Of a stretch of 21,698 nucleotides of DNA, positions 1-21,698 are shown piece after piece. The stretch spans positions 1-21,698 of IMG/VR virus record IMGVR_UViG_3300017783_000248; one strand, written 5' to 3'. The notes beneath the pieces were generated by a model. That model was not told the DNA's origin. It saw nothing but the letters and a program-made list of their open reading frames with translations, and ran no database searches. The position numbers and the translations under genes were made by a program. Position 1 is the stretch's first letter; the number at the start of each line of letters is the position of its first letter. Origin of the DNA: a virus.

Positions 1-615
1 AGCGTAACATTTAATTATAACCCCAACTTATCAACAACACCTGTTAATATAGTTGAATCTCAGGTTATTACTGCTGTACAAAATTTCTTTACAACAAATC
101 TAAAAGTATTCGGTGGAATATTTAGAAGATCAAGCTTGCTTACAACTATTGATGAGTTAGATGGTGCTGTATTAAACAGTAAAGTAGATGTAACAGTAAG
201 ACAATCATTTACACCAGCACTAAGCACCGTTCGTACGTATGACATTTATCTTCCGATGCCAATAGCTAGTCCAGATTCTGCAACAGCAAAAATAACTACA
301 AACACCTTTACATTCAACGGTAAGTTGTGTACAATACGAAACGAGTTATCTTCAACTAAGTTGCAAGTTGCTGACATTGATAATAATGTTGAAGTCGATA
401 ACATCGGCCAGTACTTCCCAGCCACAGGAAGAGTGAACTTAGTTGGATTTGCTCCTACTGCTATTTCAGTCGGATCAGATATTTTACTTACAACAGTTCC
501 AGCAAACCAATCAACCGTTAAACCACTAAGAAATTATATCTTAGACTTAGATCCAAATAGAACATCAGCTCGTGGTGTACTGGATTATGAAACTACGGTA
601 ACGGCTCTGTCATGA
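1..615 (+). CDS. 6: Baseplate wedge protein gp6, C-terminal part (5' end outside window)
   Basis: The frame is open from base 1 and ends with TGA at 613-615, so the N-terminal part lies upstream of the window; an apparent TTG start at 136 is internal. The visible 204 residues contain the segment IVESQVITAVQNFF and, after it, LLTTIDELDGAVLNSKVDV, the pattern found near the C-terminus of gp6/baseplate-J-type wedge proteins (a helix, then a 'start-of-strand' segment where the chain tests a boundary value). In T4, gp6 forms the dimeric ring-building core of each baseplate wedge and contacts gp7, gp25 and gp53. The assignment rests on this pattern and on the position immediately before gp7-like and gp8 genes. 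The stop overlaps the next start as ATGA, suggesting coupled translation. The DNA and residue use match the neighbours. Confidence is good for the family, lower for exact equivalence to T4 gp6. Confidence 0.72.
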   Translation, partial: SVTFNYNPNLSTTPVNIVESQVITAVQNFFTTNLKVFGGIFRRSSLLTTIDELDGAVLNSKVDVTVRQSFTPALSTVRTYDIYLPMPIASPDSATAKITTNTFTFNGKLCTIRNELSSTKLQVADIDNNVEVDNIGQYFPATGRVNLVGFAPTAISVGSDILLTTVPANQSTVKPLRNYILDLDPNRTSARGVLDYETTVTALS

Positions 616-3895: not shown

Positions 3896-6800
3896 ATGGT
3901 CAGCAAAGTAACACAACAAATATTCGCAACCACGTATAAAGATGATTTTGCAGATAGTGATAACTATCATAGAATTCTATTTAACAGCGGTAAAGCATTA
4001 CAAGCTCGTGAATTAACACAGATGCAAACTATCATCCAAAGCGAAATTGCTCGTTTTGGTCGTAATGTCTTTAATGAAGGTGCTGCTGTTAATCCAGGCG
4101 GACCACTTTTAAATACAAACTATGAATTTGTAAAATTAAACACAACTTCAAATGCTCTTCCAACAGCTTCTATAGCTGGAAATATATTTACCGGCGCAAC
4201 TTCAAACGTAAGAGTAAAAGTTCTTGAGAGTGTTGCAATTTCAGGATCTGATCCTGCAACGTTATATGTACAATATCTTGGTGATGCAACATCAGCAACC
4301 TCACAGTTAAGACTGACACCTGGTGAAAATATAACTGACGGAACAAATACACTTACAGTTCAAACAACAAACACAGCATCAAATCCTGCAATTGGTAGAG
4401 GTTCACGCTTCTCAATTGCTGGCGGAGATTTCTTTGCAAAAGGTCATTTTGTATTCGCGGCTGCTCAGTCATTAATCATACAAAAGTATTCACCAGCTTA
4501 CACTGGCACGATTGGTTTTAAAGCAGTTGAAGATGTTGTAACTGTTACTGACGATAATGCCTTATTTGATAACCAAGGCGATGTACCAAACACTTCAGCG
4601 CCTGGTGCAGATAGATATAGAATTCGTTTAACACTTATTGATCAAGCAAATGTTGATTCAGATGAGATGTTTGTTTATCTTGCTGAGATTAAAAACTCTG
4701 TGATTGTCGATGAAGCTACTGCAACTTCTGGCTATAATGAGATAAATGAAGTCATGGCTCTTCGTACTAAAGAAGAATCAGGCAACTATATTGTTCGTCC
4801 TTTTAAACTTAAGTTTGATGAAGATTCTGCTACAACGCATTTAATTGCTGACGTAAGTGAAGGTACTGCTTACATTAATGGTTACAGAGCAGCTATCAAT
4901 AGACATACAAAGATACGTTTTCAAAAGCCTTCAGCATCATCTACAATTAATAACGAAGTAGTTGCGGCTAACTATGGAAACTTTATTGAAGTAGATTCAT
5001 TGGTAGGTGTTCCAAACGTAAACGAAATGGAACAATGGAATCTTAGAGATTCCGCCGCGAACCAAGGTACTACGATTGGTACTGCAAAAATTCGAAATGT
5101 GGAAGAAGATGGTGCACTTTATAAGTTATCTTTATTCGATATACAAATGTCTGGTAATAACTCTTTCCGATCAGTAAAAAGTATTGCTGCAGACTCAGCT
5201 AACTATGGTAATCTTGTTCTTTCAAACAATGTTGCGGTATTGAATGATGCTGCGAACAACGATTTATTCTTTCCTCTCCCAAATACAAGACCTAGAACAC
5301 TTGCTGATATTTCATATGAAGCTCAGAAAAGATTTACTATCACAACAGATGGTGCAGGGAATGCTTCTCTTGGTTCAGGATTATTAGCGGGCGGAGAAAC
5401 CTGGGCAGGACTTTCTGATTGGGTAGTTGCTATTGACTCATCAGGTCAAAATATTTCAAGCGCAGTTACAATATCTGGTGCTGGTACAACTACAGCCACA
5501 ATCGCTGGTACAGGCGCAGCGAGTTCAAACCTTGAAGTTCTAGCGTTTGTAAATAAATCAGCCGCCACATCAAGAGCAAAGACACTTACCGAAACTACAG
5601 TAACAAGCGCATTGGATTCAGATGGCAACGGCCTTAAATTTTTAGATCTTGGCAAAGCAGACATCTTCGATGTTTCAAGAATCCGTGCAATAGATTCAAA
5701 CGGTGATGATCTAACATCTACGTTTAGGTTTGATAATGGCCAAAGAGATAACTTTTATGATCTAGGTAGACTTATAGTTAAGAGTGGACGTGGTGTACCT
5801 TCAGGAAATGTGTTTGCAAGATTTAGACACTTTGCACATGGTGCTGGTGACTTCTTCTCAGTTAACTCATATTCAATTAATTATGCAGATATTCCATCAC
5901 ATATTCTTGCTAATGGTGATACTGTACAACTCAGAGACGTAGTAGACTTCCGTCCAAGAGTTAATGATGCTGGAACTGGATTCTCTGGCGCTACTGCTAA
6001 AGTTAATTCACTTCCAAAGAACACAGATTTAATTACGCTTGATGCAACATACTACTTAGGTCGTAAAGATAAACTAGTAATTGATACAGAAGCAAATCTT
6101 AAATTAATTCAAGGTGCTGCAGACTTTACACCTCAGTTTCCACAGACACCATCAAATGCTATAGAACTATATAAAATTACATTTAATGCAAACACATTAA
6201 ATGATTCTGACTTAGGTACTCAGCTTATTGACAATAGACGATACACTATGAAAGACATTGGTCAGCTAGATAGGCGAATCAATACTCTTGAAGAAGTTAC
6301 TTCACTGAACCTACTTGAGATCAACACAAACACTCTTCAGGTGTTTGACTCTTCAGGACTGCCAAGAACTAAAGCAGGTTTCTTAGCAGATAACTTTGCT
6401 GATCATAGATTCTCAGATACTAGAGATCCAGCATATTCTGCTGCTATTGATCCAAGAGCGAAAGTATTAAGACCTCAAGCCAATCAAACTAATATACGTT
6501 TAATTTACGATTCAGATTTAAGTACTCAAGCAGTTAAGAAGGGTGATAATATCTACATCGCCCATAATGATGCTGAATTTATTTTTCAAGATGAAGCATC
6601 TGGCGTAGAAAACATTAATCCATTCGCAGTATCAATTAACGAAGGTGTCATTGAACTTTCCCCAGCATCAGACGAGTGGAGAGAAACAGAACTCACTGCG
6701 CCACGAGCAGTTGATGGTGGTAATAGACTTGCTGCTGATAACGCACTCTTATTTAATGAGTGGCAATGGAACTGGCAAGGTCAAGCTGAAGCTTCAGAAG

Positions 6801-9109
6801 ATCTAACCGGTACAGTATTTGCAACCGATAGAACTTCTCAAGGATTTATTCAAACTACTACAACTGATAGAGTTGTGAGTGATGAAACGATTCGTGAAGT
6901 CGTAGGTGAAAGAGTGGTTGATGTTGCTATCATACCATTTATGAGATCTCGTATGATTCATTTCAGAGCGTTTGGTCTTACACCTAATCAGCAATACTAT
7001 GCATTCTTTGACGAAACAGATGTGAATAACTTTGTTCGCGAAGAAGCATTTGTTCGTATGTCAGATGATCCCGAAGATTTTGGTAACAGATTTCAAAATG
7101 CAACAGTACACCCAGACGGCGCTACGTCTTTAACATCTGATGCAAATGGTGTACTTGAAGGTTCATTCTTTATTCCTAACACAAATGCTCTTCGGTTTAG
7201 AACTGGACGTAGAGAGTTTAGACTTGCAAATGCTAACTCAGCGAGAGCAGCAAACTCTACATCCTTAGCATCAGGATTTTATGAAGCAAATGGTGTAATT
7301 GAGACAGTTGAACAAACGATTCAAAGTACTCGAGTAATTACGGTACGTGGCGAAAGAGATGTTGTTGACACTACTCCTCCACCTCCACCACCTGCACCGC
7401 CAAGAGTCGTTGTAGATACACCGACTGTTGTTACTAACACTCCTGTAGTTACAGAACCTACTGTTACTACTACAACAACTACAACTACTACTACAACAGA
7501 AACTGTCACAAATCGTGGAGGCGGCGGTGGTAAAGATCCACTTGCACAATCATTCTTTGTAACAGAACCTACTGGCATATTCTTAACAAAAGCAAGAGTG
7601 TACTTTGCATCGAAACCAGATGTTGCTGGTGGAGATAACCCTGCACCAGTTGCCATGGAAATAAGACCAATGGTTAATGGCCACCCATCTGCTAACACAG
7701 CAGTTCCTGGCGGATTAAGAGTACTAACACCGAACCAAGTTACAACTGTTCCAAGCAATACAGAAGCTTCGATGTTAGCAAATGGCACAGACTTTGTATT
7801 TGAAGAACCAGTGTATCTCGCTGGTGGTGAGGAATATGCATTATGTTTACTTTCAGATACAATTGACTATACAGTTTATGTTGCTGAACCAGGTGAATTC
7901 ATTATTGGTTCAACCGAGAAACGTATTACACGTCAGCCATTATTAGGATCTTTGTTTAAATCTCAAAATGGTAGAACATGGTCAGCCGATCAAACAAAAG
8001 ATATGACATTTAGATTGTTCAAAGCTAACTTCTTACATCAGGAAGCTGAAGTAATTCTTGAAAATGCTGATGTACCAAGACGAGAGTTAGTTGCAGATCC
8101 GTTTAACTTTGACTCAGGATCAAATATATTTACAGTAAGTCATCCGTATCATGGATTTGATTCAGGTGATACAGTTAACTTTAGAGGTATAGATTCTGCT
8201 GGTTCTTTTGCAGGTATTTTAGGTTCTTCAATAACAGGTAACAGAATAGTTGCACATCCAGATCTGTTTGGATATAAAGTATATGCTGACTCTTCAGCCA
8301 CATCATCAATAGTTGCTGGTGGATCAGGTGTAGAAGCTACTCGTAATGTATTATGGGATGTATTAAGTCCAAACGTACAAACTTTGATTCCTGATGCTGG
8401 AACAAGACTTAATGCATTTGGTAAGTTTACTTCTGGCAGATCACCAGCTGGCACCGAAACGAGATTTGTGAAAGATACTTCGTTCTCTTCAATTGCTATC
8501 AATACGAATAATATAGCAACTGCGCCAAAAATGATTGGCCATTCAGTAGTTCAAACTACAAATATTGGTGCTAAATCATCAACTATAAATCTTCGTCTCT
8601 CAACGAATTCAGTTGATGTATCACCAGTTGTAGACATGCAACGTACATCGCTTAGCTTATTTAATAACTTAATTGATAAACAAGATTCTGATAGAGCTAC
8701 GGTTGGATTTAACACACCTCTCATCTTTGTAAATGAAACTGATGCAGATGGTGGTTCGCATCTAGCTAGACACATTACAACTCCAATCTCACTTGCAGAA
8801 ACTGCGGTTGGTTTACGTATCTTGATTGCTGCAAACAAACCTTCTGTTGCTGACTTCCAAGTTTACTTTAGAACCGCTGATGAAGGTACAAACATTCGTG
8901 ATGTAAACTACACTTTAGTTAATCCTGAAAATTCAGTACCGTCTGATGAGAATCCGAACATCTTCAGAGAGTATCGATACTTAGTCGGTGGATTAAATGG
9001 TACACTTACACCATTTACAACATATCAATTGAAGATTGTATTTAGATCAACAAGTAGTGCAAAAGTTCCTGTCATTCAAGACTTAAGAGTAATCGCACTG
9101 GCTACATAA
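3896..9109 (+). CDS. Giant DUF4815-type virion structural protein with Pro/Thr/Gly hinge
   Basis: This is a 1737-aa protein. The N-terminus, with YHRILFNSGKALQARELTQM (about 24-43) followed by FNEGAAVNPGG, is the signature of DUF4815, found in large tail or baseplate proteins of marine T4-like phages. A conserved middle block around nt 6830-7030 contains DRTSQGFIQ and FRAFGLTPNQQYYAFFDETD. Residues 1161-1169 are Pro-rich (six Pro, Ala, two Pro), then come Val/Thr-rich sequence, eleven Thr (1191-1201) and five Gly (1208-1212), which look like a flexible hinge. After it, KDPLAQSFFV opens a C-terminal region that ends in beta sequence (YQLKIVFRSTS). No signal peptide or membrane segment is seen. 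Its place straight after gene 8 suggests it forms an outer baseplate part or fibre base, perhaps in place of T4 gp9-gp12. Function is unproven. It joins the next gene by TAATG. Confidence 0.8.
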   Translation: MVSKVTQQIFATTYKDDFADSDNYHRILFNSGKALQARELTQMQTIIQSEIARFGRNVFNEGAAVNPGGPLLNTNYEFVKLNTTSNALPTASIAGNIFTGATSNVRVKVLESVAISGSDPATLYVQYLGDATSATSQLRLTPGENITDGTNTLTVQTTNTASNPAIGRGSRFSIAGGDFFAKGHFVFAAAQSLIIQKYSPAYTGTIGFKAVEDVVTVTDDNALFDNQGDVPNTSAPGADRYRIRLTLIDQANVDSDEMFVYLAEIKNSVIVDEATATSGYNEINEVMALRTKEESGNYIVRPFKLKFDEDSATTHLIADVSEGTAYINGYRAAINRHTKIRFQKPSASSTINNEVVAANYGNFIEVDSLVGVPNVNEMEQWNLRDSAANQGTTIGTAKIRNVEEDGALYKLSLFDIQMSGNNSFRSVKSIAADSANYGNLVLSNNVAVLNDAANNDLFFPLPNTRPRTLADISYEAQKRFTITTDGAGNASLGSGLLAGGETWAGLSDWVVAIDSSGQNISSAVTISGAGTTTATIAGTGAASSNLEVLAFVNKSAATSRAKTLTETTVTSALDSDGNGLKFLDLGKADIFDVSRIRAIDSNGDDLTSTFRFDNGQRDNFYDLGRLIVKSGRGVPSGNVFARFRHFAHGAGDFFSVNSYSINYADIPSHILANGDTVQLRDVVDFRPRVNDAGTGFSGATAKVNSLPKNTDLITLDATYYLGRKDKLVIDTEANLKLIQGAADFTPQFPQTPSNAIELYKITFNANTLNDSDLGTQLIDNRRYTMKDIGQLDRRINTLEEVTSLNLLEINTNTLQVFDSSGLPRTKAGFLADNFADHRFSDTRDPAYSAAIDPRAKVLRPQANQTNIRLIYDSDLSTQAVKKGDNIYIAHNDAEFIFQDEASGVENINPFAVSINEGVIELSPASDEWRETELTAPRAVDGGNRLAADNALLFNEWQWNWQGQAEASEDLTGTVFATDRTSQGFIQTTTTDRVVSDETIREVVGERVVDVAIIPFMRSRMIHFRAFGLTPNQQYYAFFDETDVNNFVREEAFVRMSDDPEDFGNRFQNATVHPDGATSLTSDANGVLEGSFFIPNTNALRFRTGRREFRLANANSARAANSTSLASGFYEANGVIETVEQTIQSTRVITVRGERDVVDTTPPPPPPAPPRVVVDTPTVVTNTPVVTEPTVTTTTTTTTTTTETVTNRGGGGGKDPLAQSFFVTEPTGIFLTKARVYFASKPDVAGGDNPAPVAMEIRPMVNGHPSANTAVPGGLRVLTPNQVTTVPSNTEASMLANGTDFVFEEPVYLAGGEEYALCLLSDTIDYTVYVAEPGEFIIGSTEKRITRQPLLGSLFKSQNGRTWSADQTKDMTFRLFKANFLHQEAEVILENADVPRRELVADPFNFDSGSNIFTVSHPYHGFDSGDTVNFRGIDSAGSFAGILGSSITGNRIVAHPDLFGYKVYADSSATSSIVAGGSGVEATRNVLWDVLSPNVQTLIPDAGTRLNAFGKFTSGRSPAGTETRFVKDTSFSSIAINTNNIATAPKMIGHSVVQTTNIGAKSSTINLRLSTNSVDVSPVVDMQRTSLSLFNNLIDKQDSDRATVGFNTPLIFVNETDADGGSHLARHITTPISLAETAVGLRILIAANKPSVADFQVYFRTADEGTNIRDVNYTLVNPENSVPSDENPNIFREYRYLVGGLNGTLTPFTTYQLKIVFRSTSSAKVPVIQDLRVIALAT
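7466..7498 (+). repeat. (ACT/ACA)n microsatellite encoding eleven threonines
   Basis: Eleven consecutive ACT or ACA triplets encode the Thr run in the hinge of the DUF4815 protein. The run mixes two synonymous codons, but slippage in units of three could still change hinge length without breaking the frame. Confidence 0.9.
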
Positions 9110-9333
9110 TGAAATTTATAGCAGTAGAAGGGCACCAAGGAATAGCTAGAGACGCAAGGACGGGTGCAATCGTGAATATAAATAGTAATGAAATTGAACA
9201 AGCTCGAGCAGTAAAGGCTTTGAGACGAAGAAAAGATGATGAAACAGAAATTATAAAAGAAGAAGTTGCTTCTCTAAAGAATGATATGAGTGAAATTAAA
9301 CAACTACTTCATCAACTAGTAGAGAAACGATAA
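9109..9333 (+). CDS. Small coiled-coil protein of unknown function (74 aa)
   Basis: The N-terminal half contains EGHQGIARDARTGAIVNINS followed by NEIEQARAVKALRRRK, then a charged heptad-like helix (about residues 42-74: DDETEIIKEEVASLKND and onward with IKQLLHQLVEKR). Similar small proteins with a 'EGH.G..RD..TGAI.N.N..EIE' opening occur in the structural clusters of other marine T4-like phages, with no function I know. Start and stop both overlap neighbours by one base (TAATG on each side), so it is probably translationally coupled between the DUF4815 protein and the S74 fibre. It could be a trimerising linker, a scaffold or an assembly factor; no evidence decides. Confidence 0.7.
   Translation: MKFIAVEGHQGIARDARTGAIVNINSNEIEQARAVKALRRRKDDETEIIKEEVASLKNDMSEIKQLLHQLVEKR
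9177..9184 (+). promoter_or_regulatory. Possible intragenic late promoter element TATAAATA
   Basis: A perfect late-box match lies inside the 74-aa gene, 148 bases before the S74 fibre start at 9333. It might add transcripts for the S74 fibre and downstream genes. Being inside coding sequence in AT-rich DNA, it may be chance. Confidence 0.3.
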
Positions 9334-9911
9334 TGGCACAGACTAGCATTGGTTTATTAGATACTTTTGGAGCATGGGTAACTGACTTTAATAAAGTCGG
9401 ATCAGACGTTGGCGATATTATTCAACTCACAACACCCGATAAGAGTAGCCTCGTTAATGCAATTAACTCAATTGGTTCTTCAGTTGCGAATGATACTTCA
9501 ACTAATTCAGACTTCTTTGTTGTATTTACTGATCAGACTTCAGGTGTTGAGCAAACCTTTACAGTTGCAAACTCAAAGTTATACTTCAATCCTTCTACTG
9601 GTACATTAAACTCAACTGACTTTAATTCTTTATCAGATAAAAACAAGAAAGATAATATTGAATCTTTAGTTGATGCTGTAAACGTTATCAATAATATTAA
9701 TCCTGTAAGCTTTACATGGAAAGATAATGGAAACAAAGCTTATGGTGTTATTGCTCAGGATGTAGAAGAAATATTACCAGATATTGTTTCAACAAATAAA
9801 GAAGGTGTCAAATCTGTTTCTTATACACAAATCATTCCTTTCCTTATTCAGGTTATCCAGGAACAGCATAAAGAAATACAAAAGATAAAAGCAGTTGTTG
9901 ACTTAGATTAA
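9333..9911 (+). CDS. Small fibre protein with Peptidase_S74 self-cleaving chaperone domain
   Basis: This 192-aa protein has a short N-terminal fibre part (residues 1-100, including DIIQLTTPDKSSLVNAINSI, a helix common near fibre bases) and a C-terminal intramolecular chaperone. The S74 start is SDKNKKDNIE at 101-110: Ser101 and Lys106 sit in the Ser-x4-Lys spacing of the endosialidase-type chaperone dyad, so self-cleavage is expected between Leu100 and Ser101. INPVSFTWK (122-130) and YGVIAQDVEEILPD (137-150) are further S74 hallmarks. The end is a coiled coil (QEQHKEIQKIK). In this family the domain trimerises the fibre and is then released. The mature protein would be only about 100 aa, unusually short. 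It overlaps the upstream gene by TAATG. Confidence 0.85.
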   Translation: MAQTSIGLLDTFGAWVTDFNKVGSDVGDIIQLTTPDKSSLVNAINSIGSSVANDTSTNSDFFVVFTDQTSGVEQTFTVANSKLYFNPSTGTLNSTDFNSLSDKNKKDNIESLVDAVNVINNINPVSFTWKDNGNKAYGVIAQDVEEILPDIVSTNKEGVKSVSYTQIIPFLIQVIQEQHKEIQKIKAVVDLD

Positions 9912-10265: not shown

Positions 10266-11582
10266 ATGGATATAATCTCCAGCGGCAAAATACAATCAAT
10301 ATTCGGCAAGACTAAATCTTCTAATAAATCAAAGCCATTTAATATTAAAGAATCTCGGTACCTTAGTTTTCGAGATCTTAATTACGTTGTACAACAATAT
10401 GCAGATTCTGCTACAGCGTCAGAACTTATTGACGTTGTTTTAGAAATATACTTTGCAGATAATCTTACACTAGCTGATGCACAACTTGTGTTTGCTGTCA
10501 ACAAAGCAATAACAGATATTACTGGCGTCAGCGAGAATCATATCTTAAGCATAGGAAAGATTTTTAGTGATTCAAGCACTGCTTCTGACTTAATTACTAA
10601 TATTAATACTCAAAAGGTTTTTGCTGATACGGCAAACGCAGAAGATCTTGTTGGAGTGCCAGACGGTCTTACTTATCAGTTCGTCAAAGCCTCGGCGGAT
10701 ACTGCTTCTGCAACAGAATCATTAGCATATAGTCTTTCACAAATTCTTGGAGATACAGCATCACCAGGTGATTCTCCTTCTATTGGATTTAGTACTCCAC
10801 AAGCTGATTCAGCACAGGCTACTGAAAGCATTGATGTTTTATATATCATTGGTATTAATCCTCAAGATTCAGCACAGGCTACAGAAGGCTTAGTATTTGC
10901 TATTGGTGTTAATCCAAGCGATACCGCAACAATAACAGAATCACTTAACTATTCATTAGCACAAGTACTTGCTGATACTGGTACTACATCAGATACACCT
11001 GCATTAGCAACATCTAGACCCGCTGCTGATTCGGCATCTGTAAGCGACAATGATATTATAAGCTTTGGTAAAAATCCTTCAGATACTCAAACTGTAACAG
11101 AATCTTTAGGTCCATTCGCTATCGGCAAAGTTATAGGCGATACTGGTACTACATCAGATACACCTGCTCTTGCTATATCACTTCCAACTTTTGCAGATTC
11201 AGCATCAGCTATTGAAGATCTAGATCTAGCTGTAGGAAGAGATGTATCAGACAGTGTATCTGCAACTGATTCTCCAGTAATAACCAGTGGCACATCTTTC
11301 TCAGATTCACTTACAATTTCAGAAGCGCATGTATTAGCATTTAATAAAACTAGAAGTGATAGTGTAAGCGCAGCTGAGTCGCTGGTTACATTTACAAATA
11401 AAGCTCCATCAGATACTGTTAACCCAACAGAATCTCCAGTCTTTACTATTTCACAGGTACTTGCTGATACTGGGACAATCTCCCAAGCTGGTGGTATTGT
11501 AAGTACAGATTACTTCGCAGCTGATTTTGTTGTAGCGAGTGGAGATAATGCCTATAATGCTAAAGTAGCAAGAACTTTTTAA
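10266..11582 (+). CDS. Repeat fibre protein with about twenty 18-residue units
   Basis: After a basic N-terminal 45 residues, this 438-aa protein is almost wholly tandem repeats. Each unit opens with [A/S/G]-D-[S/T]-x-[S/T]-x-[S/T/A]-[E/D], then hydrophobic and Gly/Pro residues. The opening Asp falls at about residues 47, 65, 84, 102, 121, 145, 163, 181, 201, 219, 237, 255, 273, 292, 311, 329, 347, 365, 383 and 401, so the period is almost always 18 or 19. The C-terminus (DYFAADFVVASG to VARTF) breaks the pattern and resembles a cap seen on other marine phage fibres. There are no Cys and few aromatic residues, as expected for an elongated beta fibre. It starts 4 bases after the BppU-N-like gene with no clear Shine-Dalgarno. 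Function as a fibre shaft is inferred. Confidence 0.65.
   Translation: MDIISSGKIQSIFGKTKSSNKSKPFNIKESRYLSFRDLNYVVQQYADSATASELIDVVLEIYFADNLTLADAQLVFAVNKAITDITGVSENHILSIGKIFSDSSTASDLITNINTQKVFADTANAEDLVGVPDGLTYQFVKASADTASATESLAYSLSQILGDTASPGDSPSIGFSTPQADSAQATESIDVLYIIGINPQDSAQATEGLVFAIGVNPSDTATITESLNYSLAQVLADTGTTSDTPALATSRPAADSASVSDNDIISFGKNPSDTQTVTESLGPFAIGKVIGDTGTTSDTPALAISLPTFADSASAIEDLDLAVGRDVSDSVSATDSPVITSGTSFSDSLTISEAHVLAFNKTRSDSVSAAESLVTFTNKAPSDTVNPTESPVFTISQVLADTGTISQAGGIVSTDYFAADFVVASGDNAYNAKVARTF
10401..11516 (+). repeat. Tandem array coding for 18-residue fibre repeats
   Basis: About twenty units of 54-60 bases (one of 72) run through the 438-aa gene. Most have diverged in DNA, but two pairs remain near identical: a 29-base match at 10974-11002 and 11139-11167, 165 bases apart, and GATTCAGCACAGGCTAC at 10806-10822 and 10866-10882, 60 bases apart. 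The long-range pair implies recent copying of non-adjacent units. Confidence 0.85.
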
Positions 11583-12119: not shown

Positions 12120-12947
12120 ATGACTAATCTAACGCTACGTGCTGTCAAAGGCTCTCCACTTACGAATACGGAAGTTGATAATAACTTTTCGAATTTGAAT
12201 AACTTTAAAGTGGAGAAAGATTCTAGTGGTGATGTCATAATCGCTGGTGACTTAACGGTTAATGGTACGACTACAACCATTAACTCAACTACGCTTTCTG
12301 TAAACGATAAAAATATTGTTTTAGCTGATTCAGCTGGTGACGCCGCCGCAGCCGACGGCGCTGGTATTACAATTAATGGTGCTAGCGCAACGTTAACATA
12401 TACTTCAAGTGGTGACAAGTGGAACTTTAATAAACCACTTGATATGGGTTCAAACCAGATCACTACGACAGGAAAGATTTTATTCGCTAACGTTTATTCA
12501 AGTGAAGGTGACTTACCAAGTGCAAGTACATATCACGGCATGTTTGCACATGTTCATGGCACCGGCGCAGGATATTTTGCGCATGGTGGCAACTGGATAA
12601 GACTCGCTAATCGTACAGAGGCTGCGCTACTTGCTGGAGCTACATTTACGGGTGATGTATCTGCACCAAACTTCAACTCAACATCAGATTCTCAATTAAA
12701 AGATAATATTAAACAAATTAATAGCGCACTCGATAAAGTTGATTCGATTCGTGGAGTTACATTTAACTGGAAAGATAGTGGTAAAGCATCTATGGGTGTT
12801 ATAGCTCAAGAAGTAGAAGAAATAGCACCAGAAGTTGTATCTGAAGTAGATGGATACAAGGCAGTTAACTACGATGGTTTAATTGGATTGCTTATAGAAT
12901 CAATCAAAGAACTCAAACAAGAAATTGAAGATTTAAAATCTAAGTGA
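12120..12947 (+). CDS. Tail fibre with Peptidase_S74 self-cleaving chaperone domain
   Basis: This 275-aa protein has an N-terminal helix GSPLTNTEVDNNFSNLN (11-27), a marine phage fibre anchor motif, then GDLTVNGTTTTINSTTLSVN (43-62), a shaft motif. About 122-164 is a beta module with LPSASTYHGMFAHVHGTG and YFAHGGNW, known from cyanophage fibres. The S74 domain starts SDSQLKDNIK at 189-198: Ser189 and Lys194 have the Ser-x4-Lys spacing, so cleavage is expected between Thr188 and Ser189. VTFNWKDSG and MGVIAQEVEEIAPEVV follow, and the end is a coiled coil (IKELKQEIEDLKSK). It lies 28 bases after the 149-aa gene with AAAGG before the start. The mature fibre would be about 188 residues. Confidence in S74 is high; host target unknown. 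Confidence 0.88.
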   Translation: MTNLTLRAVKGSPLTNTEVDNNFSNLNNFKVEKDSSGDVIIAGDLTVNGTTTTINSTTLSVNDKNIVLADSAGDAAAADGAGITINGASATLTYTSSGDKWNFNKPLDMGSNQITTTGKILFANVYSSEGDLPSASTYHGMFAHVHGTGAGYFAHGGNWIRLANRTEAALLAGATFTGDVSAPNFNSTSDSQLKDNIKQINSALDKVDSIRGVTFNWKDSGKASMGVIAQEVEEIAPEVVSEVDGYKAVNYDGLIGLLIESIKELKQEIEDLKSK

Positions 12948-13386: not shown

Positions 13387-14211
13387 ATGAGTATTATTTC
13401 AGCAGGAACATTAGTAACAGACGCACTCGTCCATACAGCTGACAACACAGGTCGACTTGTTTTTAAAACGAATGGTTCAACAACAGCTTTAACACTTGAT
13501 AGCGCACAGGTAGCAACGTTTGCGGGTGGTGTTACAGTTACAGGAAATCTTACAGTTGCCGGTACAACGACATCGTTTGGTGACAACGATAAGATTGTAC
13601 TAGGTGATGGACAAGACTTACAAATTTTTCACGATGGTTCAAACTCTGTAATTTTAGATAATGGTACTGGCAATTTAAATATTAAAGCAGATGAATTCAA
13701 TGTGATGAATGCTGCTGGTAATGAAACAAAGATTGCAGCTGCGTCAAATGGTGCAGCAACACTTTACTACGATAACACTGCAAGAATTGCTACAACTGCG
13801 ACAGGCGGCGCAGTAACAGGTCAAGTAACAGCAACAGCCGGTGGTGATATAACCGGTGAGTTTATTGCAGATAGCTATAACGAAACTTACGCTGCAGTTA
13901 CATCAAGTTCAAACGCAACTGCAGTGGACTGTCACGCTGGAAACGCATTTAGTCATACGCTTACAGAAAATACTACGTTTACATTTAGTAACCCGCCTGC
14001 ATCTGGCACAGCATTTAGCTTTAGCATTGAAATTATACAGGACGGATCAGCAAGTGGCTACTCCGTGACTTGGCCCGGAACTGTAGACTGGCCAGCAGCA
14101 ACTGCACCGACTCTTACGGCAACAGCAAGTGCTAAAGACGTTTTTGTATTCTACACAAGAGATGGTGGAACAAACTATCTTGGATTTACTGCAGGACAAG
14201 CATTAGGATAA
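13387..14211 (+). CDS. Tail fibre with intact Trp-Pro tip module (274 aa)
   Basis: The N-terminal part is a shaft: GRLVFKTNGSTTALTLDSAQ (22-41), GGVTVTGNLTVAGTTTSFGD (47-66) and DGQDLQIFHDGSNSVILDNG (74-93), the last being a well-known phage fibre motif. From about 176 to 272 lies a complete tip module: AGNAFSHTLTENTTFTFSNP, then SGTAFSFSIEIIQDG, then YSVTWPGTVDWPAATAPTL, then DVFVFYTRDGGTNYLGFTAG. This module ends fibres in many marine phages and probably folds as a beta sandwich that may contact the receptor. It serves here as the reference for the split copies in the 699- and 431-aa proteins. AAGGAG lies 8 bases before the ATG. It follows the 130-aa gene by 10 bases and precedes the 657-aa gene by 6. 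Confidence 0.75.
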   Translation: MSIISAGTLVTDALVHTADNTGRLVFKTNGSTTALTLDSAQVATFAGGVTVTGNLTVAGTTTSFGDNDKIVLGDGQDLQIFHDGSNSVILDNGTGNLNIKADEFNVMNAAGNETKIAAASNGAATLYYDNTARIATTATGGAVTGQVTATAGGDITGEFIADSYNETYAAVTSSSNATAVDCHAGNAFSHTLTENTTFTFSNPPASGTAFSFSIEIIQDGSASGYSVTWPGTVDWPAATAPTLTATASAKDVFVFYTRDGGTNYLGFTAGQALG

Positions 14212-14217
14212 TATATA

Positions 14218-16191
14218 ATGTCAACTAAAAAGAAAATGTTTCTTTCGGCTGCAGGCGCAGCAGGGAGTGAGGTTCTTGGACCAGAAAGTGTTTTTTCTAC
14301 TCGTTTGTATACTGGAAATGGTGGCACACAATCTATTGTCAACGACATTGACCTTACTGAAGGCGGGTTAGTTTGGACTAAAAGACGTGACAGCAGTTCA
14401 AACGGTGGTAACACTTTGTATGATACTGTAAGAGGAACAGGTTCTGGCGGAAGGCTTAGATCAAATGATAATCAACAAGCTTATAGTCCTTCAGATGCTG
14501 TAACTGCATTTAATAATAATGGTTTTAGCCTTGGGGCTGACGCAAGTATAAACGGTAATGGTTATGAAATGGTGTCTTGGACATTTCGCAAAGCCCCTAG
14601 GTTTTTTGATATAGTTACCTATACAGGAAATGGAGTAGCAGGTAGAACAATTAGTCATAATCTTGAAAGTCTTGTAGGTATGCTGATGATAAAATGTATA
14701 AGCCATTCTAGTGATTGGTCAGTACAACACAGGATGATTCTTTCCAATAAATATTTAGCTTTAAACGAAGATACTGAACAACAAACTGATACTGCAAGAT
14801 TTCATAGCACTGCGGCAGGTAACTCTACTTTTTCAGTAGGTTCTGGTAACGCTGTAAATGGAAGTGGTAGAACCTACGTAGCCTACCTATTTGCACACAA
14901 CAATAGTGGTAATCCTGGTGAGTATGGGCCTGATGGTGATCAAGATATTATCAAGTGCGGAAGCTACACGACTAGTGGATCAGGGACACACACGGAGACT
15001 CTTGGTTGGGAACCACAATTTCTTATGAGAAAAAGATACTCCGGCGGTAGTTACGGGCATCAAAGAAATTGGGAAGTATTTGATACTGCAAGAGGTTGGT
15101 ATTCAAACAATGATTATTCTTTGGAATGGAATACTGAAGATGAAGAAAGAAGCGTAGGCAATCAATACAATCGTACTGCCACTGGTTTTACAGTTCATGA
15201 AACTGGGGCAAATGTGCCTTACATCTACATGGCAATACGAAAACCAATTCTTACACCAGAAGATGCTACTAAAGTCTTTAATGTTCAAGAATACACTGGT
15301 AATGGCACAGACGGCCGAGTAATTACGTCTGGTTTTCAAACGGATATGGCTATTCTTAAAAGACATAACGATGGTAGTCGGGATTGGCACCTGGTAGATA
15401 AACTTAGAGGCGGTAAAGGCGCACTACAACGCTTCGTCCCAAATGATACGACAGAAACTGGAGATCCTAGCAATAAAGTACAAGAAATTGACATACCAGA
15501 TGGTATAGAAGTAGGGAATGACGGAGATGTAAACGCAAGTCCTGGAAAATACATAGCGTATCAATGGAAACAAACCGGAGGTTATTTTGATATTCTTAGG
15601 TACGCAGGTACTGGTAGTAATAGAACTATAAGTCATAATTTACAAGTAGTGCCTGAGATGATGTGGATCAAAGCAGAATCTTCTGGCGGTTATGATTGGA
15701 TGGTTTATCACAACGGCATACCTTCTTCTACTACAGCAATGCAAAAGTTAAATGAAGCTGGGGTTGGCATAAATAGAGCAGCGCTATTAAATAGTATAGC
15801 ACCAACTGCTACGCAAATTAACCTTGGAACTGACAACTTAACAAACCAAAACGGTGTTGATTATATGGCTTACTTGTTTGCTACTGCGCCAGGAGTCAGT
15901 AAAGTTGGAAGTTACACTGGAAACGGTAGCGCACGAAACATAGATTGTGGATTTGGTAATACTGCCAGATTTGTTTTAATTAAAAATACTCAAAGAGGCA
16001 GAGCTTGGAATCTAATCGATACAGCTAGAGGATATGGTAGTGGAGATGATAAAGTTAATTATTTAAGTGCTCAAACACAAACACTTGACTTAGATTATTT
16101 TGATACTTATTCGAGCGGCTTTAGAATCACTACTTCAAGTGATCATGTAAATGCGAACGGTGAAAATTATATCTTCTACGCAATCGCGTAA
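14218..16191 (+). CDS. DUF7483 fibre protein with six repeat units (657 aa)
   Basis: After a 25-residue N-terminus (MSTKKKMFLSAAGAAGSEVL), the protein is six units of 103-115 aa. They start with YTGNG-like strands at residues 31, 135, 250, 359, 462 and 566 and end with strands such as MVSWTFRK, YVAYLFAHN, YIYMAIRK, YIAYQWKQ, YMAYLFAT and YIFYAIA. Units carry 'R.ISHNL...P.M..IK' or 'GW.PQ.L..KR' and 'W...DT.RG'. Reading them as types gives A-B-C-A'-B-C', so a three-unit DUF7483 cassette appears twice. DUF7483 has no established function; it is frequent in marine phage tail proteins and is probably a fibre or receptor-binding fold. The ATG lies 6 bases after the previous stop with no Shine-Dalgarno; I keep it because the N-terminal STKKK pattern recurs in related proteins. 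The next gene is a chaperone. Confidence 0.75.
   Translation: MSTKKKMFLSAAGAAGSEVLGPESVFSTRLYTGNGGTQSIVNDIDLTEGGLVWTKRRDSSSNGGNTLYDTVRGTGSGGRLRSNDNQQAYSPSDAVTAFNNNGFSLGADASINGNGYEMVSWTFRKAPRFFDIVTYTGNGVAGRTISHNLESLVGMLMIKCISHSSDWSVQHRMILSNKYLALNEDTEQQTDTARFHSTAAGNSTFSVGSGNAVNGSGRTYVAYLFAHNNSGNPGEYGPDGDQDIIKCGSYTTSGSGTHTETLGWEPQFLMRKRYSGGSYGHQRNWEVFDTARGWYSNNDYSLEWNTEDEERSVGNQYNRTATGFTVHETGANVPYIYMAIRKPILTPEDATKVFNVQEYTGNGTDGRVITSGFQTDMAILKRHNDGSRDWHLVDKLRGGKGALQRFVPNDTTETGDPSNKVQEIDIPDGIEVGNDGDVNASPGKYIAYQWKQTGGYFDILRYAGTGSNRTISHNLQVVPEMMWIKAESSGGYDWMVYHNGIPSSTTAMQKLNEAGVGINRAALLNSIAPTATQINLGTDNLTNQNGVDYMAYLFATAPGVSKVGSYTGNGSARNIDCGFGNTARFVLIKNTQRGRAWNLIDTARGYGSGDDKVNYLSAQTQTLDLDYFDTYSSGFRITTSSDHVNANGENYIFYAIA
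14308..16191 (+). repeat. Six DUF7483 units, two A-B-C cassettes
   Basis: Six homologous units of about 310-345 bases fill the 657-aa gene from residue 31 to the end. The two halves (residues 31-358 and 359-657) share unit order A-B-C, which implies an old duplication of a cassette of about 320 codons. DNA identity between halves looks low, so it is not recent. Confidence 0.7.
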
Positions 16192-17416: not shown

Positions 17417-19516
17417 ATGGCAAACAATAAAGATTTTATAGTCAAGAATGATATTGAAGCAACCAATATCATCGAAGGCCTTGGGACAGTTACTGCTGGT
17501 AGTGTAGGATATGATCTTGCTAGTGCTAGTTATGATAGCACTAGTCTTGCTTCTTCCGGACATAGCCCAAGTAGCTACACATTTGATTTTTCTTTCGCTG
17601 ATAGCGGAACTAAATTATATCAGCAAAGATCGTTTTCTGGCGGTCAAATATTTCAATATACAGTAGGTACTGCTTTTGATTTAAGCACTGCTAGCTACGC
17701 CAGCAAAACTTTTACCTTTGCCCAAGGCGGTGCATCTGGCTTTGTCATAACACCAGATGGTAACACTTTGTATATTTCCGCCAACGATGGCGATAAAGTT
17801 ATGAAATACGCTTTTAGTACACCGTTTGATGTCACAACATTAGGTACTGGAAGTCAGATGTTTTCTACAGCAAGTGTAGATACACAACCTGATAAGTGTA
17901 AGTTTAATTCTAACGGAACTAAGTTTTTTCTACTAGGTAGACAGAATAATCGGATTTATGAATATTCTGTTTCATCTGCTTACGATTTATCTACTGCTAG
18001 TTATAGCAATAACTCTTTGCATGTAAACGCACAGGCAACAGCTCCTTTAGGGTTTAATTTTAATAATGATGGTACAAAATTATTTGTATCTGATAATACA
18101 ACAGATAATATATTTCTATACAATTTAACTACTGGTTATGATATAACAACAGCATCTTATGCTAGTGTTAGTTTTTCTATTAATTCTCAAGATGCTGCGC
18201 CTAGCGGAATAGATTTTAATTCTACAGGAACAAAAATGTATGTTCTTGGTGTTACCAATAGTATTATATATCAATACTCTACAGTTTTAAACACATCTAG
18301 TTTAGACCTATCTACTGGTTCAGTTTTTAATTTCACACCAACAAGTAATACACAAGTAACACTGACTAATCCTGCTCCAAGTGGTACGGTTAGTCAAGCT
18401 GCGTTATTGTATACTGGCGCCGACACAGCCGGTGTAGCTGATAGTTTTAGTACAGACCTATGGACAGGTAATGCTACCTCTCAAACCATAACTAACAACA
18501 TTGACTTATCTACAGATGGTGGAATGGTCTGGATTGCGGCAAGAAGTAATGCTGGTCACAAAGCTGTTGTTGATACTGTAAGAGGTGTCAATCAAAAACT
18601 AGCAACTAACCAAACTAATGCACAAACAGGTCAATCAACAGTTACTGCTTTTAACACAAACGGTTTTGATATAGGAAGTAGTGCTGATGTAAATGAAAAT
18701 TCATACACGTATGTAGGGTGGACATTTAAGAAGAAAGCTGACTTCTTTGACATTGTGACGTATAGTGGAAATGGATCTAACAGAGCTATCTCACATAATT
18801 TAGGTTCAGTTCCGGGAATGATATGGGTAAAAGGTTATGATCGTGATGACGGTTGGGCTGTTTATCATAGAGGCATGAACGGTGGGACTGATCCACAAAA
18901 TTATGCGATGTTTTTAAGTGGTACGAATGCACAGTCTAGTAGCAGTGCTTATTGGAATAATACAGCCCCGACTTCTACGCAATTTACAGTTGGTACAGAA
19001 GATATGGTTAATAATGCTAGTAATAATTACATAGCTTACCTGTTTCCTCATAACACTGTTATTTCTTGTGGGACTTATAATGGTAATGGCAATTCCACCG
19101 GCCCGAGTATTGATCTAGGCTTTGTGCCTCAATGGTTAATGGTAAAAAGATCAGATTCAGGCGATGGTTGGGCTGTAGTAGATGCAGAGCGTGGTTTTGA
19201 TACAAGCGGTGATGTAAAGTTAACAAGAGCTAGTGATAATAGTGCCGAGCTCTCCCAAACAAGAGTAAAGACTACTGATACTGGTTTTCAAATAGTTACT
19301 ACCGATAACGAGTGGAATAACTCCAGCGGCAAATACATCTACATGGCGATAGCTGCAGCATCTGGCGCTACAACAACATATGATAATACAATTGATTGGC
19401 CGGGCGGTACTGCTCCTACAAGTCCAGCGATTGGTGAAACAGACGTGCTTACATTTAGTACATCTGATGGTGGAGCAACATATAAAGCTGTACATGCAAT
19501 TGATGGAGCTAAGTAA
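17417..19516 (+). CDS. Chimeric fibre: anchor, beta-propeller-like repeats, split tip, DUF7483 (699 aa)
   Basis: Residues 1-30 (MANNKDFIVKNDIEATNIIE and GLGTVTAG) are an N-terminal block shared with the next two genes. About 32-293 hold five repeats of roughly 48 aa with 'P.G..F...GTK.(Y/F)V......I.QY....A(Y/F)DLSTASY', for example GFNFNNDGTKLFVSDNTTDN and GIDFNSTGTKMYVLGVTN; this looks like propeller blades. Residues 297-332 (LDLSTGSVFNF and TLTNPAPSGT) match the first half of the tip module of the 274-aa protein. Residues 345-650 are a DUF7483 A-B-C cassette (ITNNIDLSTDGGMVWI, RAISHNLGSVPGMIWVKG, GFVPQWLMVKRSDSG). Residues 655-699 (IDWPGGTAPT, GETDVLTFSTSDGG) match the second half of the tip. 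GGGGAAAG precedes the ATG. A likely receptor-binding fibre. Confidence 0.72.
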   Translation: MANNKDFIVKNDIEATNIIEGLGTVTAGSVGYDLASASYDSTSLASSGHSPSSYTFDFSFADSGTKLYQQRSFSGGQIFQYTVGTAFDLSTASYASKTFTFAQGGASGFVITPDGNTLYISANDGDKVMKYAFSTPFDVTTLGTGSQMFSTASVDTQPDKCKFNSNGTKFFLLGRQNNRIYEYSVSSAYDLSTASYSNNSLHVNAQATAPLGFNFNNDGTKLFVSDNTTDNIFLYNLTTGYDITTASYASVSFSINSQDAAPSGIDFNSTGTKMYVLGVTNSIIYQYSTVLNTSSLDLSTGSVFNFTPTSNTQVTLTNPAPSGTVSQAALLYTGADTAGVADSFSTDLWTGNATSQTITNNIDLSTDGGMVWIAARSNAGHKAVVDTVRGVNQKLATNQTNAQTGQSTVTAFNTNGFDIGSSADVNENSYTYVGWTFKKKADFFDIVTYSGNGSNRAISHNLGSVPGMIWVKGYDRDDGWAVYHRGMNGGTDPQNYAMFLSGTNAQSSSSAYWNNTAPTSTQFTVGTEDMVNNASNNYIAYLFPHNTVISCGTYNGNGNSTGPSIDLGFVPQWLMVKRSDSGDGWAVVDAERGFDTSGDVKLTRASDNSAELSQTRVKTTDTGFQIVTTDNEWNNSSGKYIYMAIAAASGATTTYDNTIDWPGGTAPTSPAIGETDVLTFSTSDGGATYKAVHAIDGAK
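17510..18295 (+). repeat. Five beta-propeller-like protein repeats
   Basis: Repeats of about 144 bases encode blade-like units in the 699-aa fibre, each with a Gly-Thr-Lys turn, an aromatic strand and a DLSTASY-like linker. Five full units are clear; a closed propeller might need a sixth or seventh blade from another chain or from flanking sequence. Confidence 0.6.
17520..17544. repeat. Perfect 9-bp inverted repeat at the anchor/propeller boundary
   Basis: CTAGTGCTA (17520-17528) and TAGCACTAG (17536-17544) are exact reverse complements around a 7-base loop. No T-run follows, so it is not a terminator. It lies within codons for the ASASYDSTSLA region, where the shared N-terminal block gives way to the propeller repeats. 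Confidence 0.85.
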
Positions 19517-20811
19517 TGGCTAACGATAAAAACTTTAAAGTAAAAAATGCATTAGAAATTGGTGGAAGCATGAAGACTTCACTTGGCACCGTTACTAGTA
19601 GCAACATCGATCTTAGCACAGGTAATTATTTTAAAGACACAACAAATACTACTACATACACAATTAGTAATCCAAGTCCTGTACAGTCGTTTAATTTAGA
19701 ATTGACTGGCGGAACCGCTGACGTAGCAAACAACTTTAATACTACTATATACGCTGGATCGAATTCAGCTAAGACTATTACTAACAATATAAACTTAGCT
19801 GGTGACGGCGGTTTAGTTTGGACTAAATGGAGAAGTAGCGCGCTAGGCAGTGCGCCGCCTATCTTTACTGATACTGAGCGCGGAGTTAATAAAAACCTTA
19901 AGTCGAACACTAGCGACGGTGAAGAAAGTACAAACTCTATAGATAGTTTTACTAGCACAGGTTATACTATAGACGCTGGCGATGGTCCTCAAGGAGGCAC
20001 AAACTATAACGGCGCTAACTATGTTTCATGGACATTTAAAAAGGCTTCTAAGTTCTTTGACGTTGTAAAAATAACAGGCACAGGCGGTTCTAGAGTTATA
20101 GATCATAATCTTGGAGTAGCTCCAGGCATGATTATTGGCACTAGATATGATGCCAACGGTGAACATTGGCACGTTTATCATCGTAGTTTAGATGATGGTA
20201 ATCAACCTGCAACCCATGCACTAAGATTAAACTCAACAGCGGCTGAAGGTGATGAAAGTAGTTATTGGAATGACACTGAACCTACTAGCACTCAATTTAC
20301 AGTTGGAAATAATCAAAACCACAATGGTGGAAGCCATATTTTCTACCTATTTGCACATGATACCGCCTCTTCCAGCCAGATTTATTGCGATGGATACACA
20401 AAAACGGGATCAAGCCAAGACATAAACATAGGTTGGTCTCCACAGTGGTTAATGTTGAAGCGTAGAGACTCTACTGGCTCTTGGTATGTTATGGATACCA
20501 CAAGAGGTTTTACTACAGACTCAAACCCTGTGACTCTAAAAGCTGAAAGTTCTGACGCAGAAGGTGGACTTGGTAATGTGACACGGACAAGTACTGGCTT
20601 TAATGTTACATCAAACTCTGGTCAAAAGTGGGTCTACGTGGCAATCCGTGAAGCCGGTGATCCCGCTATCACGTGGCCTGCTACAGTAAAATGGCCAGCT
20701 GGAATTACTCCTACGGCACCGGGTATTGGCGAAACAGACTTATACACATTTACTACAGACGATTCCGGATCATCATATTACGGTTATTTGTCTGGCGATA
20801 ACCTTAGCTAA
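19516..20811 (+). CDS. DUF7483 fibre with split tip module (431 aa)
   Basis: The N-terminus MANDKNFKVKNALEIGGSMK and LGTVTSSN matches the block that opens the 699-aa fibre, but no propeller follows. Residues 32-66 (DLSTGNYFKDTTNTTTYTIS and FNLELTGG) correspond to the first half of the 274-aa protein's tip. About 67-382 are a DUF7483 A-B-C cassette, with units opening near 79 (YAGSNSAKTITNNINL), 186 (ITGTGGSRVIDHNLG) and 294 (YTKTGSSQDINIGWSPQWLM). Residues 385-427 (ITWPATVKWPAGITPT, GETDLYTFTTDDSG) correspond to the second half. Start overlaps the upstream stop as TAATG, with GGAG in the upstream gene's last codons, so translation is probably coupled to the 699-aa protein. Likely a shorter paralogue of that fibre. 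Confidence 0.75.
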   Translation: MANDKNFKVKNALEIGGSMKTSLGTVTSSNIDLSTGNYFKDTTNTTTYTISNPSPVQSFNLELTGGTADVANNFNTTIYAGSNSAKTITNNINLAGDGGLVWTKWRSSALGSAPPIFTDTERGVNKNLKSNTSDGEESTNSIDSFTSTGYTIDAGDGPQGGTNYNGANYVSWTFKKASKFFDVVKITGTGGSRVIDHNLGVAPGMIIGTRYDANGEHWHVYHRSLDDGNQPATHALRLNSTAAEGDESSYWNDTEPTSTQFTVGNNQNHNGGSHIFYLFAHDTASSSQIYCDGYTKTGSSQDINIGWSPQWLMLKRRDSTGSWYVMDTTRGFTTDSNPVTLKAESSDAEGGLGNVTRTSTGFNVTSNSGQKWVYVAIREAGDPAITWPATVKWPAGITPTAPGIGETDLYTFTTDDSGSSYYGYLSGDNLS

Positions 20812-20825
20812 GTGGAAAGTGAAAC

Positions 20826-21698
20826 ATGGCTAATAATAAAAACTTTAAAATAAAAAATAGCATTGAAGCTACAAAATTCACAGATTTTAATGGCACAATC
20901 GCGACTGGAGCTAACGGGCCAGATGGTCTGTTCAGTACTACACTTTACACTGGCACGGGTTCTTCTAACGCAGTTAGTACTGGCGTAGATTTAAGTTCTG
21001 ATGAAGGCATGGTGTTTATAAAAAATAGAACTGGAACATCTGATTGGAATTTATTTGATACAGTACGAGGTATGACTACATCAAACGCTGAAATATTATA
21101 TCCAAACAAAACAGATGCTGAAGTTGGTATAGCAGATTACTTCAATGTAACTAGTACAGGTTTTACTGCGTTACACAGCGGTATGGACACAAACGACGTA
21201 AGCAATAACTCTACGTATGTAGCTTTTAGTTTTAAATCAGCTGCTAACTTTTTTGACGTAGTAACTTATAGCGGATCAAACAGTCAGCAAACTATTAACC
21301 ACAATTTAGGCTCAGCTCCAGGAATGGTCATAGTAAAATGTAGGAGCGCCAGTGGTACTGATTGGTATGTTTACCATAATGCTCTAACATCAAGTAGTCA
21401 TGGTATGGTTTGGAATAGTACTGGATCTGAAGGCGGAAACGGTTATTGGCCTGTGGCACCTACATCATCACAGTTTACCTTAAAAGCTAATACTGGAGCA
21501 ATTAATCAATCTGGAAGAACATACGTTGCTTACTTCTTTGGTCATGACACATCATCAAGTAGCATGATACAATGCGGTGGTTACACTGGTAATGGATCCG
21601 CTGCGGGTGCAGCTGTAACTCTTGGATGGGAACCACAGTGGGTAATGATTAAAAATAGAGATCTTGGTTCAGAACAATGGCACATACTTGATAACGTG
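20826..21698 (+). CDS. DUF7483 fibre, N-terminal part (3' end outside window)
   Basis: The frame runs open for 291 codons to the last base. The start ATG has GTGGAAAGTGAAAC before it, a leader nearly identical to that of the 699-aa gene. MANNKNFKIKNSIEATKFTD (1-20) is the third copy of the shared N-terminal block. DUF7483 units follow without any first-half tip sequence: unit A with TTLYTGTGSSNAVSTGVDLS and WNLFDTVRG, unit B with FFDVVTYSGSNSQQTINHNL and WYVYHNAL and YVAYFFGHDT, and unit C begun with CGGYTGNGSA and LGWEPQWVMIKNRDLGSEQW. The missing end should complete unit C and may carry a tip module. Overall a third paralogue in the same series. Confidence 0.78.
   Translation, partial: MANNKNFKIKNSIEATKFTDFNGTIATGANGPDGLFSTTLYTGTGSSNAVSTGVDLSSDEGMVFIKNRTGTSDWNLFDTVRGMTTSNAEILYPNKTDAEVGIADYFNVTSTGFTALHSGMDTNDVSNNSTYVAFSFKSAANFFDVVTYSGSNSQQTINHNLGSAPGMVIVKCRSASGTDWYVYHNALTSSSHGMVWNSTGSEGGNGYWPVAPTSSQFTLKANTGAINQSGRTYVAYFFGHDTSSSSMIQCGGYTGNGSAAGAAVTLGWEPQWVMIKNRDLGSEQWHILDNV

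Follow-up and report, generated by a model that had tools for sequence, protein, structure and literature searches.

Gene content of the window

The DNA analysed was IMG/VR virus record IMGVR_UViG_3300017783_000248, and the whole 21.7 kb record (21,698 nucleotides, referred to below as the window) carried tail genes. Fibre-like genes were arranged in a row from 9.3 kb to the window end, and this run also contained two genes with S74 chaperone domains and a Phage_tail_APC protein (tail assembly chaperone), as identified with Pfam and PHROGs. The S74 peptidase (intramolecular chaperone) domain was present in two separate genes (9333-9911 and 12120-12947) within 4 kb, and a 438-aa ORF at 10266-11582 was made up of repeats that are imperfect and have a high content of Asp, Ser, Ala and Thr. 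Five DUF7483 domains were identified in the window with Pfam. A 1,737-aa protein (3896-9109), with poly-Thr and glycine linker sequence in its last third, was related to phage proteins annotated as VrlC; among the matches listed it was closest to proteins of phage C48C1, Pelagibacter phages Mosig and HTVC008M and Pseudomonas phage pf16, and these relatives suggest that the source phage may be of the contractile-tail (T4-like) type.

All fibre genes and fibre domains described below are on the plus strand. The 274-aa fibre gene (13387..14211) has an intact C-terminal domain with an empty loop. This domain, called the tip in an earlier note on this DNA, occupies 13924-14205 as a whole and consists of an A half (VDCHAGNAFSHTLTENTTFTFSNPPASGTAFSFSIEI; 13924..14034), the hairpin turn IQDGSASGY (14035..14061), which is the equivalent of the insertion site described below and is empty here, and a B half (14062..14205). 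The halves were delimited by half-profile alignment, together with an AF2 model in the case of the B half, and the turn by the AF2 model, in which it spans residues 219-226 and is flanked by strands 210-218 and 227-228. The adjoining 657-aa ORF (14218-16191) encodes a tandem pair of DUF7483 copies without a tip; relatives of this ORF next to the 274-aa fibre in other loci (L030-L109) vary in length and often have an extra N-terminal region.

Three further fibre genes follow. The 699-aa fibre gene (17417..19516) encodes, in order, a leader, a propeller, an A half, DUF7483 in the loop and a B half; the 431-aa fibre gene (19516..20811) encodes a leader, an A half, DUF7483 in the loop and a B half; and the last gene (20826..21698), which is cut by the window end, encodes a leader and then a DUF7483 domain (20928-21695) at the position upstream of the tip. 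Complete relatives of the last gene run on into an intact tip, as in L201:4463-5773, where DUF7483 is followed by an empty tip. The genes at 17417, 19516 and 20826 begin with a common leader resembling MAN(N/D)K(N/D)FK(I/V)KN, and for two of them there is a near overlap, with stop and start at 19514-19518. The common leader and the near-overlapping genes suggest, on sequence grounds, that one tail-attachment module may be used by several fibres. In PHROGs the split-tip fibre protein is grouped with tail-fibre families (phrog_9017 and phrog_7760).

Division of the C-terminal domain

In the earlier note it was proposed that DUF7483 lies within the fibre tip of the 431-aa protein and divides it in two. 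Profiles of the two halves were prepared from intact tips, with no nested tip included: 47 curated sequences came from viral contigs, and their alignment was cut in the hairpin that separates 'FALEI' from 'TITWP'. Both profiles were searched against 4,276 ORFs. A profile of the undivided tip had drifted into propeller repeats on iteration and was replaced by the curated half-profiles. Both halves were detected by these intact-only profiles in the 431-aa and 699-aa fibres and in the right order, and these matches are not due to chance.

In the 431-aa fibre, the A half is at 19606..19704 (residues 31-63; 22.7 bits, i-E 1.5e-5), the nested DUF7483 at 19729..20652 (residues 72-379; Pfam, 162.2-165.4 bits) and the B half at 20665..20805 (residues 384-430; 62.7 bits, i-E 5.7e-18). 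The same split had been claimed for the 699-aa fibre, where the A half was found at 18302..18409 (residues 296-331; 41.0 bits, i-E 2.9e-11), the nested DUF7483 (PF24299) at 18440..19357 (residues 342-647; Pfam, 194.6-197.8 bits) and the B half at 19370..19507 (residues 652-697; 54.8 bits, i-E 1.7e-15). The curated Pfam cut-off for DUF7483 is 27 bits. The boundaries of the halves in both fibres had been placed to within a few codons in the earlier note, and the first-half match, whose loss in a profile alignment was named there as grounds for refutation, held in both proteins at the A-half values given above. In PHROGs, phrog_9017 and phrog_7760 cover the tip of the 274-aa fibre, whereas the 431-aa protein is matched by their last third only, as would be expected of a split domain.

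Predicted structure of the C-terminal domain

The 431-aa protein was modelled with confidence as a monomer with AlphaFold (pLDDT 89.9, pTM 0.85). Strands ahead of the insert were located at residues 30-32, 38-41, 49-51 and 58-64, and long strands after it at 407-413 and 421-427; comparison of the two AlphaFold models gave the same strand order in the flanks as in the intact tip, with four strands before the insert and the last long strands after it. The top PDB match of the 431-aa model was residues 79-180 of TSP4 (7rej_A), aligned over 89 residues in the model range 20..429 (Z 4.8). The intact tip (residues 170..272) matched 7rej 79..180 over 90 residues (Z 5.4, 3.6 A) and T4 gp9 68-167 at Z 5.9. 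Flanks and intact tip thus match the same range of TSP4, and the flanks are predicted to pack as the 274-aa tip does, in agreement with the earlier note, at modest Z values; this packing could have been favoured in the 431-aa model, because its input alignment contained intact tips aligned across the flanks.

The matched range corresponds to the domain XD1 of CBA120 TSP4 (residues 80-178), a beta-sandwich with counterparts in T4 gp9, T4 gp10 and two glycan-binding modules of bacteria; in TSP4 and the two T4 proteins it is a trimeric spacer (PMC8825819). From the models, the tip domain appears to be an XD1-like mixed beta-sandwich of ~100 residues, by which is meant fold resemblance rather than proven homology because the Z values are middling. 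Since its fold resembles this trimeric spacer, the name C-terminal platform domain would suit it better than receptor-binding tip, and it probably trimerizes as XD1 does.

When the tip profile was searched against the sequences of solved structures, the only match was at chance level. DUF7483 had weak PDB matches only (Z <5), over residues ~68-181, 182-281 and 286-381; the matched domains were immunoglobulin-like or other beta-sandwiches.

Census of the loop and types of cargo

Distinct tips were collected in seven scans of viral contigs (n=403), and a tip was scored as empty if the gap between its A and B halves was up to 40 aa. The order of first half, DUF7483 and second half, for which a search had been suggested in the earlier note, was found in 28 of the 403; 257 tips were empty and 118 carried a propeller in place of DUF7483. 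The filled tips (146/403) had A-to-B gaps of 249-528 aa, with no intermediate gap lengths, and the insertion point was the same turn in all of them. An A half of 20 bits or more without a B half was found in 17 ORFs, of which 14 were cut by the locus end and one had the B half in a shifted frame.

DUF7483 (~310 residues) is thus an insert in a loop, as the earlier note had it, but the site is not specific to DUF7483, which is one of at least two exchangeable and unrelated cargoes. The other, of ~265 residues, was first noticed in L014, L016, L018 and L021. By profile search the cargo of L145:4258-5685 scored 44.0 bits for SGL (cut-off 26.3) and 29.5 bits for Lactonase (cut-off 21.7), and the cargo of L016:7191-8348 matched the S-layer propeller 1l0q at E 4.6e-6. 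Judged by these matches, the alternative cargo is a beta-propeller related to the SGL/Lactonase and S-layer propellers. It occurs also as a double propeller of ~527 residues; such double-length inserts (527-528 aa) were observed in the same loop of L277:1216-3144 and L434:1225-3144. Three inserts first labelled 'other' proved to be propellers with weaker repeats, and no third kind of loop cargo was found among the 403 tips.

A second cargo site is located directly upstream of the tip domain. In the 699-aa fibre it is occupied by beta-propeller-like repeats (17507..18286, Pfam, ends approximate; Lactonase 7-bladed propeller 23.0 bits, cut-off 21.7). In the first census the combinations of upstream site and loop were none/empty, none/DUF7483, none/propeller and DUF7483/empty, and, with an upstream propeller, propeller/empty, propeller/DUF7483 and propeller/propeller; DUF7483/DUF7483 was found in L201. 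The earlier note had overlooked that a beta-propeller makes up the first third of the 699-aa protein, that relatives carry a propeller in place of DUF7483 in the same loop, and that adjacent paralogues have DUF7483 ahead of an intact tip. Three tip subclasses, defined by a simple pattern on the last residues, were each found empty, with DUF7483 and with a propeller. In L014:7224-8963 and L021:2447-4180 a different upstream module (~200 aa, by eye neither DUF7483 nor propeller) precedes a propeller-filled tip.

All nested genes came from metagenomic viral contigs except a divergent case in Lentibacter phage ICBM2, in which a gene of the same plan (A half, propeller, B half) is located at L360:3276-4487. 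With the strict half-profiles no A half was detected in this gene and the B half scored 11.9 bits; with profiles widened to include nested tips, the A half scored 17.3 bits and the B half 15.7 bits, each above all of 2,000 shuffles. A protein of ICBM2 was also matched weakly by the 431-aa model in a search of a viral structure library (rank 25, E 8.3e-5, with a long gapped alignment).

Cargo exchange between near-identical genes

Pairs of genes that differ by the cargo were compared at the DNA level. The propeller-filled gene L113:3998-5146 and the empty gene L115:5687-6049 were 97.6% identical over the first 209 nt and 99.2% identical over the last 123 nt, and the flanks of the same filled gene were 96.7% and 97.9% identical to those of the empty gene L123:233-595. 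In the latter pair, identity ends after the EVTGA codons and restarts at ACA ATA ACC TAC CCT, and the turn codons TCT ACA TAT (STY) of L123 occupy the position of the L113 cargo, so that the cargo replaces three codons. These base-level empty/filled pairs, the half-profiles, the strand order in the two AlphaFold models and the match to XD1 of TSP4 bear out the domain-in-domain insertion at a loop that the earlier note had proposed.

Distances between A and B halves were correlated at r 0.85 in DUF7483-filled, 0.78 in propeller-filled and 0.57 in empty tips, whereas the correlation with cargo distances was r 0.28 (DUF7483) and 0.15 (propeller) for the A half and 0.30 (DUF7483) and 0.25 (propeller) for the B half. 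By this measure the halves evolve together and hardly with the cargo. At least 19 changes of cargo state were counted on an unrooted tree of the tip only (74 rows), a number that is rough because the tree rests on 84 columns.

The nearest relative of the window, contig 3300002483_000007 (L201), has neighbouring genes 92-93% identical to those of the window, and its fibre genes match those of the window at 86-89% DNA identity in the leader and the two halves (about 87-88% for leader plus A half and for the B half). The DUF7483 of the 431-aa fibre has almost no DNA match in L201, and protein identity of DUF7483 between window and L201 is 38-44%. The upstream site, filled by a propeller in the 699-aa gene, holds DUF7483 in its nearest relative, L201:841-3141. 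In comparison with another close relative, L006, the third DUF7483 subdomain of the 431-aa protein (20359-20655; residues 282-380) was 44% identical and the rest of the protein 83-100%; because of this difference, exchange seems to occur inside DUF7483 as well.

Proposed mechanism and alternatives

The reading preferred here, at a probability of about 0.85, is that the fibre ends in an XD1-like platform with an exchangeable slot in one loop, that the conserved halves serve as recombination arms and that the cargo is displayed. The C-terminal domain would be a compact XD1-like beta-sandwich used as a platform; one beta-hairpin turn is the slot, which holds a short turn, DUF7483, a beta-propeller or a double propeller, and a second slot lies directly ahead of the platform domain. 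Cargo would be swapped by recombination between fibre genes, with conserved DNA in the leader and in both halves as homologous arms, a part these segments could play because they are common to neighbouring fibre genes and related phages. Exchange is probably driven by homologous recombination, and as the conserved arms would guide it, the reading frame and the platform fold would be preserved. The displayed cargo would bind host surface structures and so set adsorption specificity; such binding is inferred from its position in fibre genes and its fast exchange.

The main rival concerns this last step. The cargo could be structural instead of receptor-binding, a spacer or decoration giving stiffness or protection to the fibre or baseplate, as might be suspected from the spacer role of XD1 modules in known proteins (PMC8825819) and from the placement of some DUF7483 proteins in the PHROGs category 'head and packaging'. 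The cargo is however the fast-changing part between near-identical flanks, it is located in a row of fibre genes that also includes S74 chaperone domains and the tail assembly chaperone protein, and the interchange of propeller and DUF7483 fits display better than a fixed structural role; a structural cargo is accordingly judged unlikely, at a level that still gives it some weight. It is improbable that the nested state is ancestral and that empty tips arose by cargo loss. Gain and loss are not separable from unrooted counts, and free exchange of cargo entails losses too, but empty tips outnumber filled ones and are more diverse, contiguous tip matches are present in the most closely related isolates (Roseobacter phages CRP-4, CRP-9, CRP-13 and CRP-603), and the presence of two unrelated cargoes at one point requires at least one gain.

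Much less credit is given to the proposal that the flanks are two independent small units, a linker motif on the N-terminal side and a cap at the C-terminal end, which have a chance likeness to the tip halves and do not build one fold around DUF7483. The A half of the 431-aa fibre is indeed the weakest match (22.7 bits), and flank packing is known from one PDB alignment of modest Z; against this, A almost never occurs without B, the halves co-evolve (r 0.78-0.85), both flanks jointly match one contiguous solved domain, as does the intact tip, and near-identical genes with joined flanks exist. Least probable of all is misassembly between fibre paralogues with conserved halves: paralogues with common leaders and halves do stand side by side here, and adjacent paralogues with common sequence are a familiar cause of misassembly, but many independent contigs, drawn from different samples, show the same arrangements, the frames are open across the joints, and the divergent A-propeller-B gene is in the complete genome of an isolate, Lentibacter phage ICBM2.

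The platform with its exchangeable slot, the reading preferred above, may be an instance of something more general, in which XD1-like halves act as paired arms and any domain with close termini can be shuttled into one turn to give combinatorial fibres. For this wider reading the odds seem even; if it is true, two slots with at least three states each would be available within and between phages.

Comparison with known systems

Phage fibres are modular end to end. In the present genes the exchange of large unrelated domains takes place within another domain, whose fold apparently stays unbroken, and it has happened repeatedly and recently in marine viruses; this would be a concrete route for adhesion proteins to alter what they display while the anchor stays. 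No description of domain nesting in phage fibres, and no mention of DUF7483, was found in the open-licence literature searched. The cargo of the window belongs to DUF7483 (PF24299) by score, whereas the family model does not include nesting in another domain; a family for which no literature was found would thus gain a place and, from sequence, a likely role.

The closest known parallel is the evolved Dits of siphophages of Gram-positive bacteria, in which CBMs are inserted in loops of the Dit galectin domain (PMC7291167). Evolved Dits (PMC7291167) have in common with the fibre genes that a structural domain carries a module in one of its loops, and that some phages have this module and others lack it. 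The binding modules of evolved Dits add an adhesion function to a structural protein (PMC7291167), whereas binding by the present cargo is proposed from its position and exchange. The host domain and cargo also differ, being Dit and CBMs in the one case and an XD1-like fibre domain with DUF7483 and beta-propellers in the other. Unlike evolved Dits, the fibre genes include empty and filled forms that differ by the cargo alone at 97-99% flank DNA identity, and several paralogues per phage with different cargo and a second cargo site. The slot may well work like an evolved Dit, and membership in that class is not claimed.

XD1 of TSP4, gp9 and gp10 is alike in fold, since the intact tip and the nested flanks both match 7rej 79-180, but it is an internal spacer in the available part of its description (PMC8825819), whereas the present domain is C-terminal and holds cargo in a hairpin turn; that part describes no domain within an XD1 loop. 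The fibres of Alteromonas phage A5/V22, as far as the accessible portion of the source extends (PMC10579305), are likewise marine, with an insertion that duplicates the knob and with modules that move between distant phages, but they involve knob duplication and a change of chaperone and not a slot with unrelated cargoes. For the fibres studied here, natural empty/filled pairs are available for direct tests.

Cellular relatives of the cargo

When the 431-aa protein was searched against bacterial and archaeal genomes, no relative was found. With a propeller-filled fibre as query, tip halves were not found in bacterial or archaeal genomes and propellers were. These relatives of the propeller cargo were common in cellular genomes (L435-L479), without tip halves; many were from SAR11 (Pelagibacteraceae), and others from Patescibacteria and archaea.
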